In this document: piece after piece, positions 47 to 24,509 of the stretch
How positions within the stretch are numbered: the first letter of the stretch is position 1
Layout of the letters: each line of letters starts with the position of its first letter
Origin: Thermospira aquatica
GTDB taxonomy: Bacteria; Spirochaetota; Brevinematia; Brevinematales; Thermospiraceae
Direction: 5' to 3'
Length of the DNA: 64,000 nt
Assembly: GCF_023525255.1 (NCBI RefSeq)
Contig: NZ_CP073355.1
Location: forward strand, 1,674,001-1,738,000
The notes under the pieces: generated by a model
The model's database searches: none
What the model saw: only the letters and a program-made list of their open reading frames with translations
Told to the model about the DNA's origin: nothing
Position numbers and translations under genes: made by a program

Positions 47-98
47 AATGCTGCTATGAACTGGATAGGGGCATTTGAAAATTTTAAGGAGGATACGT

Positions 99-1457
99 AT
101 GGACTTGTGGAATGAGATTGCCAGGGAACTTTCTCAGACGTTCGACAGTGAACTTAACCGAGCGATCCTTGAGAAGATTCGCTTCAAAGAAGTCCAGAAT
201 GATAAAATTATTGTTTTGATTGCACCTGATCCTCTTACATCAGGCTGGTTTGAGGCAAATTATCGTCAACTTGCTGAGTCGATAGCGTTTCGTCTTACCC
301 AAAAGCCCTATGTTTTTCAGGTTGAGATTGCCCCTCATCAGGTTGTTTATAAAAAAGTGTCAGAGCGTTCGAGTGTTTCCGAAGCTGGTGTGACCCAGCC
401 CTATCTCAATCCAAAATATACGTTTGAAAGGTTTGTGGTGGGTTCAAATAATGATTTTGCTCATGCAGCGGCCATGCAGGTGGCGCAATGTCCGGGAACG
501 AATTACAATCCTCTTTTTATTTATGGGAATGTTGCGGTTGGGAAAACCCATCTTATTCAGGCCATAGCCCACTATATCCTGAAAAATTCTCCAGAAAAGA
601 AGGTACGATACGTCACGAGTGAGGTTTTTGCCAATGAATTTATCGAATCAATCTCTAAAAAGAATACCGAACATTTTCGTTCTCGTTATAGAACACTTGA
701 TGTTTTAATTATTGATGATGTTCAGTTTTTCCAGGGGAAAGAAAGTACCCTTGAGGAGTTTTTTCATACGTTTAATACGCTTCTTCATGAAAAGAAGCAG
801 GTTGTTTTTGCCTGCGATCGTCCCCCTCATCTTCTCAAGAATATAAGTGATCGTTTGCTTACCCGCTTTAACTCTGGCTTAACCATCAAGATTGAAAATC
901 CGGATATGGAAACACGTATGGCCATCTTAACACGCCGCGTAGAAGAGGAAAGTCTTGATATTTCGACAGAGGTTATACGTTATATAGCAGAGCATATTGA
1001 CAGTGATATCCGTAACCTCGAGGGGGCTCTTACCAAGCTGATTGCTTACGCCGATCTCCGAAAGAAAGAGATCTCTCTTGATCTCGCCAAGGAGGTTTTG
1101 AGAGATAAGATTCAGATGGAAGTACCGAAAAATCTGACGGTAACCGACATTCAGCGTGCTGTGGCTCGTTATTTCAACATCAATGTGAATGATCTTAAAT
1201 CTGAAAGGCGCCTGGAGAATATTACCTATGCACGGCATATAGCCATGTACTTGGCCAAGGAACATACTAATCTCTCTTTGACGGAGATAGGAAGTCTTTT
1301 TGGAGGGAAAGCCCATACAACGGTAATGCGATCCGCGGACAAGATTGAGAAAATGATGAAAACCCGCAAAAAAGTCCGAAAAGAAATAGAGGATATCATA
1401 GCTCTCTTTTACGAAGAAAAAACTTCTAAGAAAGAAAAAGAAACCACACTTTCTTAG
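99..1457 (+). CDS. dnaA: Chromosomal replication initiator protein DnaA
   Basis: DnaA binds origin DNA and loads the replicative helicase. The protein is 452 aa, about the usual length. The start is ATG 99, six bases after AAGGAGG (86-92); an in-frame TTG at 75 has no ribosome site. Domain III has a P-loop GNVAVGKTHL near residues 142-151, Walker B LIIDDVQFF near 202-210 and sensor-region NLEGAL. Domain IV carries the signature near 401-409 as FGGKAHTTV. The family norm is FGGRDHTTV, so the acidic residue that contacts the DnaA box is Ala here. The P-loop also lacks two of the usual glycines (GGVGLGKTH). The next gene is mcsA rather than dnaN. Function is certain; DNA specificity may differ from the norm. 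Confidence 0.97.
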   Translation: MDLWNEIARELSQTFDSELNRAILEKIRFKEVQNDKIIVLIAPDPLTSGWFEANYRQLAESIAFRLTQKPYVFQVEIAPHQVVYKKVSERSSVSEAGVTQPYLNPKYTFERFVVGSNNDFAHAAAMQVAQCPGTNYNPLFIYGNVAVGKTHLIQAIAHYILKNSPEKKVRYVTSEVFANEFIESISKKNTEHFRSRYRTLDVLIIDDVQFFQGKESTLEEFFHTFNTLLHEKKQVVFACDRPPHLLKNISDRLLTRFNSGLTIKIENPDMETRMAILTRRVEEESLDISTEVIRYIAEHIDSDIRNLEGALTKLIAYADLRKKEISLDLAKEVLRDKIQMEVPKNLTVTDIQRAVARYFNINVNDLKSERRLENITYARHIAMYLAKEHTNLSLTEIGSLFGGKAHTTVMRSADKIEKMMKTRKKVRKEIEDIIALFYEEKTSKKEKETTLS

Positions 1458-1560: not shown

Positions 1561-1589
1561 CCTCCCTTACGATAATTAGGGAGGAGAGG
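1561..1589 (+). promoter_or_regulatory. Leader hairpin overlapping the mcsA ribosome binding site
   Basis: CCTCCCT (1561-1567) pairs perfectly with AGGGAGG (1578-1584) across a 10-base AT-rich loop. The right arm runs into the purine-rich GGAGAGG (1583-1589) that serves as the mcsA Shine-Dalgarno. In RNA the stem would cover part of the ribosome site, as in simple RNA thermometers. There is no following T-tract, so it is not a terminator. The regulatory role is inference. Confidence 0.4.
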
Positions 1590-1594
1590 TGATT

Positions 1595-2170
1595 ATGCAA
1601 AAAAAACGATGCGAACTGTGTGGTCGTCAGGAGAGCCTCATCGAGGTTCAGGTTTACCGTGACAATAAACCCAAAACACTTTCTCTCTGTACCTCGTGTG
1701 CTATGAAGCTTTTGGAGAATCATCCTGAGGGTCAAAAGGATGTCTCTGCTCTTCTTGAAAAAGGAGGGAAAGAGATGTTCCAGATGATTTTTGAGGTACG
1801 CTCTCTGTTGGGGGAGATTGCCTCGCAGATTCATATGATTGAAACTCAGAGGAGTCATGCCTCGCAGCTTCAGTGTTCCTGTGGTCTTACCTATGAAGAA
1901 TTCAAAGAAACGGGGTATCTGGGTTGTCCTTGGTGTTATGATACGTTTAAGACGGCTATTCATGAGATGCTGGTTGATATTGAGCGTGGCACAGTTCATC
2001 GAGGGATGATTCCCCCAAAGCATATGTATTTTATTCTCGTTCAGAAGGAAATAGCTTATCTCCAGCGAAGGTTGAAGCATCTTCTTTCTCGAGAAGCCTA
2101 TGAAGAGGCGGCAAGGGTCCAGAAACGCTTGAAGCGTATTCAGGGCAAAACTCAGTGGGATAGTCTATGA
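1595..2170 (+). CDS. mcsA: McsA-like zinc-finger/UVR-motif protein, McsB activator
   Basis: In Firmicutes McsA activates the protein-arginine kinase McsB and takes part in ClpC control. Four CxxC or CxC clusters are visible in order (CELC, CTSC, CSC, CPWC), fitting two zinc fingers. The C-terminus has a UvrB/UvrC-like helical hairpin (near residues 145-185, with EEAARVQKRLKRI). The start is ATG 1595 (191 aa), eight nt after the purine-rich site; an in-frame GTG at 1589 overlaps that site and is less likely. The stop overlaps mcsB by 4 nt (ATGA), so the genes are translationally coupled. Confidence 0.9.
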   Translation: MQKKRCELCGRQESLIEVQVYRDNKPKTLSLCTSCAMKLLENHPEGQKDVSALLEKGGKEMFQMIFEVRSLLGEIASQIHMIETQRSHASQLQCSCGLTYEEFKETGYLGCPWCYDTFKTAIHEMLVDIERGTVHRGMIPPKHMYFILVQKEIAYLQRRLKHLLSREAYEEAARVQKRLKRIQGKTQWDSL

Positions 2171-3096
2171 CATATATTACTCTTCCAGTAACCTTGACTG
2201 AACATAATCATTCACTTGATCATATGGTATGGAGCTCAAGGGTAAGATTTGCACGAAATGTTGAAGGACGTACGTTTCCATGGCGTATGTCTGAGAGGGA
2301 AGCCTTTGAGCTGGATGATAAACTGGGAACTTTGTTAAGGGAACTGTTTCCTGAAGCTCTCTTTTTCCATACAGAGGATTTTGAGTCGGAAGAGCTGCTG
2401 CGCTGGTATGCGAGAAGGGTTATTTCACAAAATTTTATCAAGCAGGGACGAACCTTTGGATTTGCAAAAGATGGTTCCTGGACGATGATGCTTCTCGAGG
2501 ATGATCATCTGCGATTGCAGTCGTGTGAGATGGGCTACCGTATTCCAGGGATGCTTGAGAGGTTGATTCTTGTGCTCCGGCAGATAGAGAAGTACGTGGA
2601 TTTTGCTTTTGATGAGGAAAAAGGGTATTTGACCAGTTCTCTTCTCAATGTGGGCACAGGACTTCGTCTTTCGGCTATGGTTAATCTCTGGGGATTGGTA
2701 AGTCAAAAAAAGATAGCCGATTTGATAGAATATGCCAACCATATGAGTTATATGGTAGTGAATCATATACGGGATGATTCTTTTGCGCCTTTATTTTATA
2801 TTTTTAATTACTATTCTCTTGGAAGTTCAGAACAGGATATGCAACATGAATTTCAGAGATTTCTTCAGCATGTGTGGAAGTTAGAACAAGAAGCTCGTCA
2901 TGAAACATTATCTGAAGAAGAGGAACGAAAGATTTGTTATCTTGAGCTGAAAGAGGTTCACGAGATGGAAATGCTTTCGTATGAGGAAATGGTATATTAT
3001 TTATGTCTTCTGGATGTCTTGATTCAACAGAATATTTTGGTCTTTTCAGAGAGAGAATCCTTGCGTCGCTTGATCTTTACCTACTCGGATGATTGA
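2167..3096 (+). CDS. mcsB: McsB-like phosphagen-kinase-fold protein (catalytic residues altered)
   Basis: McsB phosphorylates arginines on proteins and so marks them for ClpC. The phosphagen-kinase fold is recognisable: SSRVRFARN (23-31), EDDHLRLQ (111-118) and LNVGTGLR (160-167). The family's NEEDH motif reads LEDDH, so the usual catalytic Glu is Asp112. The SCPTN motif reads SSLLN, so the catalytic Cys position is Ser158. From memory, a Cys-to-Ser mutant of B. subtilis McsB is inactive, and Glu-to-Asp at this position strongly impairs arginine kinases. At 309 aa it is somewhat shorter than typical McsB (about 350). It sits between mcsA and clpC. It may be a weak kinase, a pseudokinase adaptor or a divergent enzyme. 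Confidence 0.85.
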   Translation: MTYITLPVTLTEHNHSLDHMVWSSRVRFARNVEGRTFPWRMSEREAFELDDKLGTLLRELFPEALFFHTEDFESEELLRWYARRVISQNFIKQGRTFGFAKDGSWTMMLLEDDHLRLQSCEMGYRIPGMLERLILVLRQIEKYVDFAFDEEKGYLTSSLLNVGTGLRLSAMVNLWGLVSQKKIADLIEYANHMSYMVVNHIRDDSFAPLFYIFNYYSLGSSEQDMQHEFQRFLQHVWKLEQEARHETLSEEEERKICYLELKEVHEMEMLSYEEMVYYLCLLDVLIQQNILVFSERESLRRLIFTYSDD

Positions 3097-3098
3097 TC

Positions 3099-3221
3099 TT
3101 GTATGATTATCAACTCGAGCAGGAAGAAGGAAAGCATCTGCGCTGGCAGGAACTCAATAGGCTTATTCGACGGATTTCTCTCAGACCAATACCAAGAAGA
3201 AACTCAGGAGCTATGGTATGA
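3099..3221 (+). CDS. Possible small protein between mcsB and clpC (40 aa)
   Basis: An open frame runs from TTG 3099 (or TTG 3093, overlapping the mcsB stop) to TGA 3219-3221. The stop overlaps the clpC start as ATGA, the coupling seen between the other genes of this operon. The predicted peptide is about 40 aa, begins LYDYQLEQEEGK, is very rich in Arg in its second half and ends NSGAMV. It has no ATG and no clear ribosome site. It fills the 121-bp mcsB-clpC gap without a stop. I do not recognise it. It could be a coupled small protein or simply a lost C-terminal piece of mcsB. Confidence 0.3.
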   Translation: MYDYQLEQEEGKHLRWQELNRLIRRISLRPIPRRNSGAMV

Positions 3222-5710
3222 ATGATTTCTCGGATTTTTCTTCACGGGCTCAGCGTGTGATTTCCATGTATACCCAGCAGGAGGCGCGTCGTTTTTTTAG
3301 CGACCAGCTTTTGCCGGAGCATCTTTTTTTGGCGCTTATGAGGGATAGTGATGCTGAGTCTGTCAAGGTGATAGAAGAGTTGGGATTGGATAGAGAAGAT
3401 CTTATTCGAGAGGTTTCTACAATTCTTAAGAGCAAGAGTACGAATGTGCTTACTCTTGGAGGGCTTCATTTTTCCCAGCGTTTACGGAATGTTCTGGCAT
3501 GGAGTAAGGAAGAGGCGAGAAGTCTTAGTCATCCGGTGGTGGGTACAGAGCACCTTTTGATTGGGCTTTTTTATGAGAGTGATAATCCTGAAGCGATTAT
3601 CCCTGTGATTTTTGCCAATCGTGGTATAGATATCGATGCGGTACGGCAGGCAGTGGTAAATGTTGTGGGATACGGTGAGATAACTTCGAATAGTAAAAGA
3701 CGAAGTAAGACTCCCTTCCTGGATAAATTTACCCGTAATCTCAATACGATGGCGGAACAGGGGCTTTTGGACCCGGTGATCGGGCGGGAAAAAGAGATAG
3801 AACGCTTGATTCAGGTTTTGAACCGTCGCCAGAAAAATAACCCTCTTTTATTGGGAGAGCCTGGAGTAGGAAAGACAGCTATTGTTGAGCGTGTAGCGCA
3901 ACTTATTGTCCGTCGTGAGGTTCCTCAAAAGCTTCTGGGAAAGCGAATACTTCTCCTTGATCTTGGGCTCATTGTTGCAGGGACAAAGTATCGAGGAGAA
4001 TTTGAGGAAAGGATGAAAAATATCATTAAAGAGGTCGAGGAATCAGATAACGTGATCCTCTTTATTGATGAAATTCACACGATTCTCGGAGCAGGAAATG
4101 CCGAGGGTGCACTCGATGCTTCGAATATGCTTAAGCCTGCACTTGCGAGAGGAACACTTCGCTGTATTGGTGCTACTACTTTTGATGAGTACCGAAAACA
4201 TATAGAGAAGGACAAAGCTTTTGCGCGGCGATTTCAGACACTGGTGGTATCAGAACCGACTGTTGAGGAAACCATCGAAATCCTTCAGCATCTCAAGCCA
4301 AGGTATGAAGTATTTCATCGTGTAAAATATACGGATAGAGCCATTGAAATGGCGGCGTATCTTGCCAATCGCTATCTTACAGAGAGACATCTCCCTGACA
4401 AGGCCATCGATCTTCTTGATGAGGCTGGCGCGTATTGGGGGAGTAATCTTACAGAGAAACCTGAAGAACTGATACAAATGGAAAAGCAAATAGCAGAGCT
4501 TGAGCAGGAGAAGGCACAGTATGTCCGTCAGCAAATCTATGAAAAAGCTGCCGCCACAAGAGATGCTCTCCAGAAACTCAAGGCAACTTATGAACAACGA
4601 AAATTCGAGTGGATCTCAAGGCAAACGGAACGGACAGTGGTGATAGATCAAAAAGAGATCGAATATATTGTTTCTTCGATTGCCAATATTCCAATCCATC
4701 GTCTCGATAATGACAAGGACAAACGACGTTTTCTCACCATGGAGGAAACGTTAAAAGAGACTATTCTTGGTCAGGAAGAAGCAATTGATCGTATCTCCAA
4801 AACCATCAAAAAGAATATTGCGGGTATCCGGAATCCGAGACGTCCTATAGGGAGTTTTCTCTTTTTGGGTCCGACAGGGGTGGGGAAAACAGCCCTGGCA
4901 AAAGCTTTGGCAGAGTTTTTGTTTGGATCGGAGAATGAGCTTATCCGTATTGACATGAGTGAATACGGTGAAAAGTTTAATGTTTCCAGGATGCTTGGGG
5001 CACCTCCGGGGTACATTGGTTATGAACAGGGAGGGGCTTTGACTGAACAGGTAAGGCGTAAACCGTATTCGATTGTGTTGTTTGATGAGATTGAGAAGGC
5101 GCATCCCGATGTCTACAATGTTCTTCTTCAGATTCTGGATGAGGGACAGATTACTGACAGTTTGGGAAATGTTATTAACTTTAGAAATACGGTCATTATT
5201 ATTACCTCGAATCTTGGAACACAGTTTTATACCAACCAGGAGTCGATGGGGTTTGCTAACCAATCAGGGCGTCATCAATCGTTAAAAGATAAAGTCATGA
5301 GTGAGGTAAAGCACTTTTTTAAGCCGGAGTTTCTTAATCGCATTGATGATATTGTGATTTTCCGTTCTCTGGATGATAAGGTTCTGGATCTTATTGTGCA
5401 CAAGTTTTTGCGCCAGCTGGAACATGAGCTTTTGCTGAATAATATAACCATTTCGGTGACGCCAGCAGTGGTAGAGCATATTGTGAAAACAGGCTATGAC
5501 CCAAAGTATGGTGCTCGTTCGCTTGCGAGGGCTATTTCTAACCTGATTGAGGAGCCACTGGCGGAGCAGCTTTTGTTGCAACAGGGAAGTGTGAGCGCAT
5601 CTCTACCCCTGGAGGTACATATTGATTTTATAGAAGGCCAGATCGTTATTCAGATGAAACCGAGGGCTGGAACAGCCAGTCGTCGTCGAAAACCTTCAGT
5701 GAAGCGATAG
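3218..5710 (+). CDS. clpC: ATP-dependent Clp protease ATPase subunit ClpC
   Basis: ClpC is an AAA+ unfoldase that feeds substrates to ClpP. The 830-aa protein has a double Clp-N domain (residues 1-150), P-loop 1 GEPGVGKTA near 213, a middle coiled coil with UVR-like helices (near 410-460), P-loop 2 GPTGVGKTA near 550 and a ClpB-D2-small domain. In the N-domain the two glutamates that bind phosphoarginine in B. subtilis ClpC are retained (LPEH near 32, GTEH near 109). This contrasts with the altered McsB upstream. ClpP is not in this window. ATG 3218 overlaps the upstream small frame. Confidence 0.95.
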
Positions 5711-22584: not shown

Positions 22585-24207
22585 ATGGCAAAAGATCTAT
22601 TGTTTTCGAGTGAAGCACATCAAAAGATTCTCTCAGGTGTTGAGAAATTGGCCCGTGCGGTGGGTGCAACTCTTGGTCCCCGCGGTCGAAACGTGGTGAT
22701 CGACAAGAAGTTTGGAGCACCTACGATCACCAAAGATGGTGTAACGGTAGCCAAGGAAATCGAACTCGAAGACAAGTTCGAAAACATGGGTGCTCAGCTG
22801 GTAAAAGAAGTGGCAACCAAAACCAACGATATTGCGGGTGATGGTACCACGACGGCCACGGTGCTGGCTCACGCGATTATTCGCGAGGGTTTCAAAAATG
22901 TCACTGCTGGAAGCAACCCCACCTTGATTAAGAAGGGGATTGACAAAGCTGTTGAGGCAGTGGTTGCTGAGCTTAAGAAGCTTTCTAAAAAAGTGGATGA
23001 TCGTGAAGAGATCCGCGATGTGGCAGCTATCTCTTCGAACAATGACAAAACTATCGGAGAATTTATCGCTGAGGCTATGGACAAGGTTGGAAAAGACGGT
23101 GTGATTACTGTTGAAGAGTCCAAGTCTCTCGATACATATGTGGATGTTGTGGAGGGTATGCAGTTTGATCGTGGCTATCTTTCTCCCTATATGGTAACCA
23201 ATGCAGAGACGATGGTCGCAGAGCTCGAAGATCCTTTCATTCTTCTCTATGATAAGAAAATTGCCTCTATTAAAGAGATTGTTCCTCTTCTTGAAAAGAT
23301 TGCTCAGTCCGGGCGACCTCTCTTGATTGTAGCCGAGGATGTAGAGGGTGAGGCTCTTGCTACATTGATCGTGAACAAGCTGCGTGGTACGTTGAACTGT
23401 GTGGCTGTAAAGGCTCCTGCGTTTGGCGATCGCCGCAAGGCAATGCTTGAGGATATTGCTATTCTCACTGGTGGCCAGGTGATTTCTGAAGAAAAGGGTA
23501 TGAAGCTTGAAAATGCTACTCTGGCTGACCTCGGTCGTGCAAAGAAAGTGAAAGTTGACAAGGAAAATACCACCATCGTCAGTGGTGCCGGAAAGAAAGA
23601 AGCTATCGAGGCTCGTATCAAACAGATCAAGAAACAGATTGAGGATACGACTTCTGATTATGATCGCGAAAAACTTCAGGAGAGACTTGCAAAGCTTGCC
23701 GGTGGTGTTGCTGTGATCCGTGTTGGTGCTGCCACTGAGGTTGAGCTCAAAGAGAAGAAAGCCCGCGTTGAAGATGCTCTCTCTGCTACCAAAGCAGCCG
23801 TAGAAGAGGGTATCGTTCCTGGAGGTGGTCTCTCCTTGATTCTTGCCCAGAAAGCTCTTGAGGGACTCAAAGGTGCCAATGAAGAGGAACAGGTAGGTAT
23901 TGAGATTGTTCGTCGTGCCCTTGAGGCTCCTATGCGCATGATTGCTGACAATTCCGGTATCGACGGTTCTGTGGTGGTGCACCGTGCAAAAGAGTCCAAG
24001 AATGGGATGGGGTATAACGCTCTTACCAACGAATGGGTAGATATGATGAAGGCAGGTATTATTGATCCTGTGAAGGTTGAACGCACTGCTCTTCAGAATG
24101 CTGCTTCTATTGCAGGGCTTCTCCTTACCACTGAGGTGATGATTACGGATAAGCCTGAGAAGGAAAAAGCTCCTGCTCCTGCTGCTGGTATGGGAGATAT
24201 GTATTAA
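22585..24207 (+). CDS. groL: Chaperonin GroEL
   Basis: GroEL is the 60-kDa chaperonin that folds proteins in the cytoplasm. The protein is 540 aa and keeps the usual motifs: [28 protein letters not shown], the ATP-site region and [12 protein letters not shown]. The C-terminus is short ([12 protein letters not shown]) rather than a long GGM repeat. ATG 22585 follows AAAGGAG. The usual partner groES is not adjacent and is not in the window, so the gene stands alone between its promoter and a terminator. Confidence 0.98.
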
Positions 24208-24216
24208 GCAAAATGT

Positions 24217-24242
24217 AGGCGCCCCTTGTGGGCGCCTTTTTT
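24217..24242 (+). terminator. Rho-independent terminator after groL
   Basis: AGGCGCCC (24217-24224) pairs perfectly with GGGCGCCT (24230-24237), followed by a T-run. The remaining 260 bp up to secA are AT-rich, with a TATACT at 24477-24482 as a possible -10 and nothing else recognised. Confidence 0.92.
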
Positions 24243-24509
24243 GTTCTCGTATGGAAATGTCTTGTGGTGAAGTGGGTACCATGAGGATAAAGTACGAAAC
24301 ATTTGAATTCTTTCATACTATGAGAGATACGTTTTCTTTGGTTCGGCGAAAGCCAGTATTGTTGGTGAAAAGAAAATGTTTTTGGTTAAAAGTGTTCTTT
24401 CCTTTTTCAATAAAAGCATGAAATCGTTTCAAGAGAAAATTTTTTATAAAAATTTTTCTTTTCCTGGATTTTGTGTTATACTAATGGAGAAGTTTTTTAA
24501 GGAGTGAAT

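Follow-up and report, generated by a model that had tools for sequence, protein, structure and literature searches.

A degenerate active site beside mcsA and clpC

What does an McsB do once the residues of its catalytic centre have been replaced? This question is raised by the mcsB homologue of Thermospira aquatica, which we analysed in a 64,000-nucleotide stretch of the genome, here called the window (contig NZ_CP073355.1, positions 1,674,001 to 1,738,000). The features discussed below are given with their positions in the window.

75..1457, + strand: dnaA (TIGR00362 above cut-off), upstream of mcsA
1589..2170, + strand: mcsA homologue, 193 aa (NF053706, E 2e-21), with two Cys-pair zinc fingers, the second of the form CxC...CxxC, and a UvrB-like tail
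2167..3096, + strand: mcsB homologue of 309 aa in which the catalytic Glu and Cys are substituted and a frameshift shortens the C-terminus
2239..2247, + strand: codons of R25-V26-R27, with both phosphate-binding arginines present (Arg29 and Arg31 in B. subtilis McsB)
2494..2514, + strand: LEDDHLR (L110-R116), counterpart of NEEDHxR; Asn119 to Leu, Glu121 to Asp112, Arg125 kept as R116
2635..2667, + strand: SSLLNVGTGLR (S157-R167), counterpart of SCPTN; Cys167 to Ser158, Pro to Leu, Thr to Leu, Arg176 kept as R167
2755..2787, + strand: lid loop VVNHIRDDSFA replacing RGxYGEGxE; Arg207 and Glu212 lost
3091..3221, + strand: 1-nt deletion, with the former mcsB C-terminus surviving in another frame at 56-59% identity to the tails of the congeners
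3218..5710, + strand: clpC, 830 aa; N-domain Glu32 and Glu106 of the phospho-arginine (pArg) pockets present

The homologue matched PF00217 with 98.5 bits against a cut-off of 22.4, missed the NCBIfam equivalog cut-offs (NF002194, 126.9 versus 385 bits; NF053707, 118.2 versus 500), and had the neighbours expected of an McsB, being flanked by mcsA and clpC. AlphaFold2, run with 44 homologues, predicted an McsB fold, made up of the phosphagen-kinase catalytic domain and the dimerisation domain (pLDDT 88.1, pTM 0.87; TM 0.86 to B. subtilis McsB, 6tv6), a result favoured by an input alignment that consisted mostly of canonical McsBs. An earlier note on this DNA had placed the gene in its conserved operon; the order mcsA-mcsB-clpC agreed with this, but ctsR is missing, since no CtsR match was found in the 60 genomes tested (that of the window and 59 relatives). 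No second PF00217 gene was present across the 2.515-Mb single-contig genome, ruling out a second, active McsB elsewhere in it.

In the translation, D112 and S158 lie in the segments ...LLEDDHLRLQ... and ...GYLTSSLLNVGTGLRLS..., and alignment to B. subtilis McsB placed them opposite Glu121 and Cys167, respectively. Reference residues are numbered as in B. subtilis McsB, with the offset taken from chains 6tv6 and 8wtb; the check residues agreed. The replacement of Glu by Asp112 and of Cys by Ser158, on which the earlier note had built its case, was thus borne out. Its description of the gene as otherwise intact did not hold: the lid motif RGxYGEG reads VNHIRDD, and a 1-nt deletion removes the last ~42 aa. 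The note had missed the loss of Arg207 and Glu212 from the lid and the frameshift, and had drawn too strong a conclusion from two residues alone. Four of the five phosphate-binding arginines remain, Arg29, Arg31, Arg125 and Arg176 being present as R25, R27, R116 and R167, suggesting that ATP binding is plausible; the equivalents of Glu120, Asp122 and His123 (E111, D113 and H114) were unchanged. The pArg-receptor motif RDxxRA was absent from the window McsB, which ends before that point, and from its congeners.

Distribution of the substitutions

We compared the site with a control set of the 80 best-matching McsBs, drawn from Bacillota, Verrucomicrobiota and others and including one spirochaete, G029, with no relative from the window's class among the 80 loci. 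Cys167 and Arg207 were present in 80/80 and Glu121 and Glu212 in 79/80; the search pattern favoured NE[DE]DH, so that the count for Glu121, and not those for the other three, is partly by construction. Because Glu and Cys are this constant in the reference McsBs, the Asp112 and Ser158 substitutions are not due to chance. The sole exception among the controls was the McsB of Pectinatus brassicae (L231), which reads NEDDH, has GNTAH in place of GEG in the lid and retains the Cys.

A different pattern emerged when McsB was taken from 86 spirochaete genomes of more than 30 families. Both Glu121 and Cys167 were kept in 14 of the 86, Glu without Cys was found in 13 and Cys without Glu in none. All seven active-site residues checked were kept in two, G029 (family f17) and G051 (f26). 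The RDxxRA motif, found in 73/80 reference McsBs, occurred in 3 of the 87 spirochaete-side rows of the alignment. None of the McsBs examined from the window's order and class has Cys167. Within the order, families f1 and f2 had the Asp/Ser pair and f3 either Asp/Ser or Glu/Ser, while in f4 the Glu, the Cys and most of the arginines were gone. In f5, of the same class, the entire site was replaced by new conserved motifs, YDHF and SDISTIGHG. Three f5 homologues (L097-L099), in which the replaced motifs are conserved inside the family, had neither mcsA nor clpC adjacent. The alignment of many spirochaete McsBs that the earlier note had proposed therefore revealed a loss that is class-wide and, in addition, recurrent across the phylum. 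The substitutions cannot be put down to sequencing error, since congeners and other families have them too. The same note had named another Cys or Glu filling the active site as a finding that would overturn its reading. For a Cys this was rejected: the McsBs of f2 and f5 contain no cysteine at all, and Cys120 of the window McsB is confined to the genus, so that no other Cys can occupy the site.

A ClpC tree, rooted by means of 12 outgroups, served to count the losses. Treating loss as irreversible, we obtained six for the Glu/Cys pair, and five after branches with support below 95 were collapsed. The tree thus indicates that the pair was lost independently at least five times in spirochaetes, once in the window's class and at least four times more. 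In the unrooted tree the canonical G029 grouped as sister of the window's class (~98% SH-aLRT), and in the rooted tree it likewise stood between this class and the remaining losses. Single placements are provisional, because the tree came from a quick search with no mixture model.

One family, f31, had appeared degenerate from its low scores, but inspection of its ORFs revealed McsA fused to McsB with the site retained, and f31 was excluded from the losses. In this fusion (L110, L112, L113 and L125), which lies directly upstream of clpC, a McsA-type double zinc finger is joined to a short domain of phosphagen-kinase type with the Glu, Cys and GGEGS residues but no dimerisation domain. In L120 (G279, f48) and L119 (G276, f41), mcsA and mcsB also form one open frame, and there the active site is degenerate.

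Selection and the frameshift

Close pairs of Cys-less McsBs gave dN/dS values of about 0.03-0.06 (0.009/0.264, 0.052/1.234 and 0.087/1.464); the ratio was taken from these closer pairs only, the window and its congeners being saturated at synonymous sites. Cys-less McsBs are under purifying selection.

Two congeners, 70-71% identical, encode an McsB of 351 aa, with the mcsB stop and the clpC start overlapping as ATGA. Compared with them, the window mcsB lacks one base near 3091-3101 and its reading frame ends at 3096, 42 aa before the congeners' end. The missing tail is legible in another frame at 3099-3221, where the old stop (3219-3221) overlaps the clpC ATG; the frameshift thus also abolishes the mcsB-clpC stop/start overlap. 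The ratio of dN between window and congener to dN between the congeners was 2.7 for mcsB, 2.3 for mcsA and 2.4 for clpC. These similar ratios, together with the identity retained in the tail, indicate that the window mcsB was constrained like its neighbours until recently, and that the frameshift is a recent event or a sequencing error.

We give slightly less than even weight to a sequencing or assembly error, in which case the true McsB would have ~351 aa as in the congeners and the active site would be unaffected. The tail, conserved out of frame as far as the stop expected at the clpC start, is what such an error would leave; against it, the indel lies outside any homopolymer run, and the genome was assembled into one contig with 99.8% completeness. 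The loss of 42 aa and of the overlap with clpC could also be taken to mean that the window copy is a non-functional, decaying pseudogene and that the active-site changes are part of its decay. This we consider very improbable. The Glu and Cys changes are common to intact homologues of 342-351 aa throughout the order, dN/dS in Cys-less relatives is low, the divergence of the window mcsB is proportionate to that of mcsA and clpC, and the out-of-frame tail is conserved, so that the frameshift is the sole sign of decay.

Partner genes of the degenerate McsBs

Almost every locus had the order mcsA-mcsB-clpC, even where McsB is very degenerate; in f4, f5, f14 and f42, clpC is not adjacent to mcsB and is found elsewhere in the genome. 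The double Cys-pair zinc fingers of McsA persist beside degenerate McsBs. In Staphylococcus aureus the second of these fingers orients the catalytic Cys of McsB (PMC12467219), and in spirochaetes it outlives that Cys. In all three genomes of the window's genus (window 1589-2170; L072 and L073) this second finger has CxC, not CxxC.

We then considered the phosphatase. The mere presence of a low-molecular-weight phosphatase was discarded as a marker of pArg, most PF01451 matches being of the arsenate-reductase or tyrosine-phosphatase type, and only the P-loop CTGNTCRS was accepted as YwlE-type. It was found in 2 of the 71 genomes scanned for PF01451, namely G029 and G051, the pair with a fully canonical McsB. 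The window genome has no YwlE-type phospho-arginine phosphatase; its sole PF01451 protein is of the arsenate-reductase type, with CVHNSARS.

The glutamates of the ClpC pArg pockets, Glu32 and Glu106, were kept almost everywhere and have not eroded together with the McsB site. Since these pockets also stabilise the resting state of ClpC (PMC12583610), the co-erosion test does not discriminate, and the kept glutamates fit either retained pArg binding or the resting-state role. In f43 (L082 and L115), the clpC beside mcsB has ~670 codons and the N-terminal domain that binds pArg and adaptors is seemingly missing.

A probable McsB-fold pseudokinase

Collectively, catalytic residues have been lost while the protein remains under purifying selection, the combination by which we recognise a pseudokinase. 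We consider it probable that the window gene encodes an McsB-fold pseudokinase, a partner of McsA and likely also of ClpC that does not phosphorylate arginine. The same loss at least five times in related spirochaetes suggests that McsB has probably been retained for a job other than attaching phosphate to arginines. Binding of the window McsB to McsA and ClpC is putative and follows from the kept neighbourhood and the McsA zinc fingers; the f5 McsBs that lack an adjacent mcsA or clpC count against a partnership of this kind. The earlier note had left a choice between a pseudokinase adaptor and a kinase with altered chemistry. The pseudokinase now appears broader than was thought, class-wide and recurrent, and altered chemistry less likely.

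Phosphagen kinases such as arginine kinase retain partial activity when the equivalent Glu is changed to Asp or the Cys is replaced. Structures of such arginine-kinase mutants include 1sd0 (C271A), 1p50 and 1p52. The case for a pseudokinase must hence rest on the pattern of the whole site and the whole clade, and a weak or re-specialised kinase has to be weighed, one that binds ATP and phosphorylates arginine or another group, or hydrolyses ATP, with no Cys, with Asp for Glu and with a different lid. This tolerance in related enzymes makes such a kinase conceivable, and the retention of R25, R27, R116, R167 and E111/D113/H114 in the genus and in f2 would suit it. However, the fifth phosphate arginine (Arg207) and the second catalytic Glu (Glu212) have also disappeared; the sister families f4 and f5 have lost the arginines too, yet retain the gene; the clade has no YwlE-type phosphatase; and nothing, neither a newly conserved Cys nor another catalytic motif, has taken the place of the old. 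We therefore regard a residual or altered kinase as unlikely.

Under the preferred pseudokinase reading, the ancestor would have been a protein-arginine kinase of the McsA-McsB-ClpC system whose active site eroded in the window's class and at least four further times in the phylum, selection retaining McsB for a structural partnership with McsA and, probably, ClpC. McsB may then deliver or gate substrates, or control ClpC, through binding and not through arginine phosphorylation, perhaps with ATP still bound. The analysis shows the sequence changes and their distribution, the kept neighbourhood and McsA zinc fingers, purifying selection, the predicted fold and the lack of a YwlE-type phosphatase; that kinase activity is absent and that McsB acts by binding is what we infer. 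That spirochaetes repeatedly made McsB a kinase-dead partner of McsA and ClpC, with McsA-McsB-ClpC quality control operating without phospho-arginine, strikes us as an evenly balanced proposition.

If true, nature would here have uncoupled what McsB does as an adaptor from what it does as a kinase. In B. subtilis the two are hard to dissect, because both the adaptor function of McsB and its stimulation of ClpC need kinase activity (PMC5506225); for the same reason a spirochaete McsB that still acts on ClpC must be rewired. Spirochaetes offer natural kinase-dead candidates, several missing only the Cys or part of the site, in which non-phosphorylating roles could be studied. In most spirochaetes, the products of genes annotated as 'protein arginine kinase' probably make no phospho-arginine.

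Relation to known systems

The window McsB resembles those of Bacillus subtilis, Geobacillus and Staphylococcus aureus (6tv6, 6fh1-3 and 8gqd) in predicted fold and in its mcsA and clpC neighbours, and shares with canonical McsBs arginines 29, 31, 125 and 176, E120, D122, H123, N170 and GTGLR. It differs from them in Glu121, Cys167, Arg207, Glu212, RDxxRA and the shortened C-terminus, and its genome differs in lacking ctsR and a YwlE-type phosphatase. The nearest canonical counterparts are of the same phylum: G029, whose family is sister to the window's class, also shares the gene order, but both G029 and G051 have all seven residues and the phosphatase. Metazoan arginine and creatine kinases (PF00217) share the catalytic-domain fold and the phosphate-binding arginines; they are small-molecule enzymes with another N-terminal domain and with Glu, Cys and lid intact. 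Eukaryotic and bacterial Ser/Thr pseudokinases offer a parallel, with the kinase fold kept, catalytic residues repeatedly lost and a role by binding, although their fold is unrelated. In the open-access literature we found no description of McsB pseudokinases, of bacterial pseudokinases with the phosphagen-kinase fold or of spirochaete McsB; what is new here is that a known fold in a known gene setting lacks the chemistry by which McsB is defined.

Elsewhere in the window, two ORFs of ~540 aa, at 22585-24207 (+ strand) and 22633-24282 (- strand), overlap almost completely on opposite strands.
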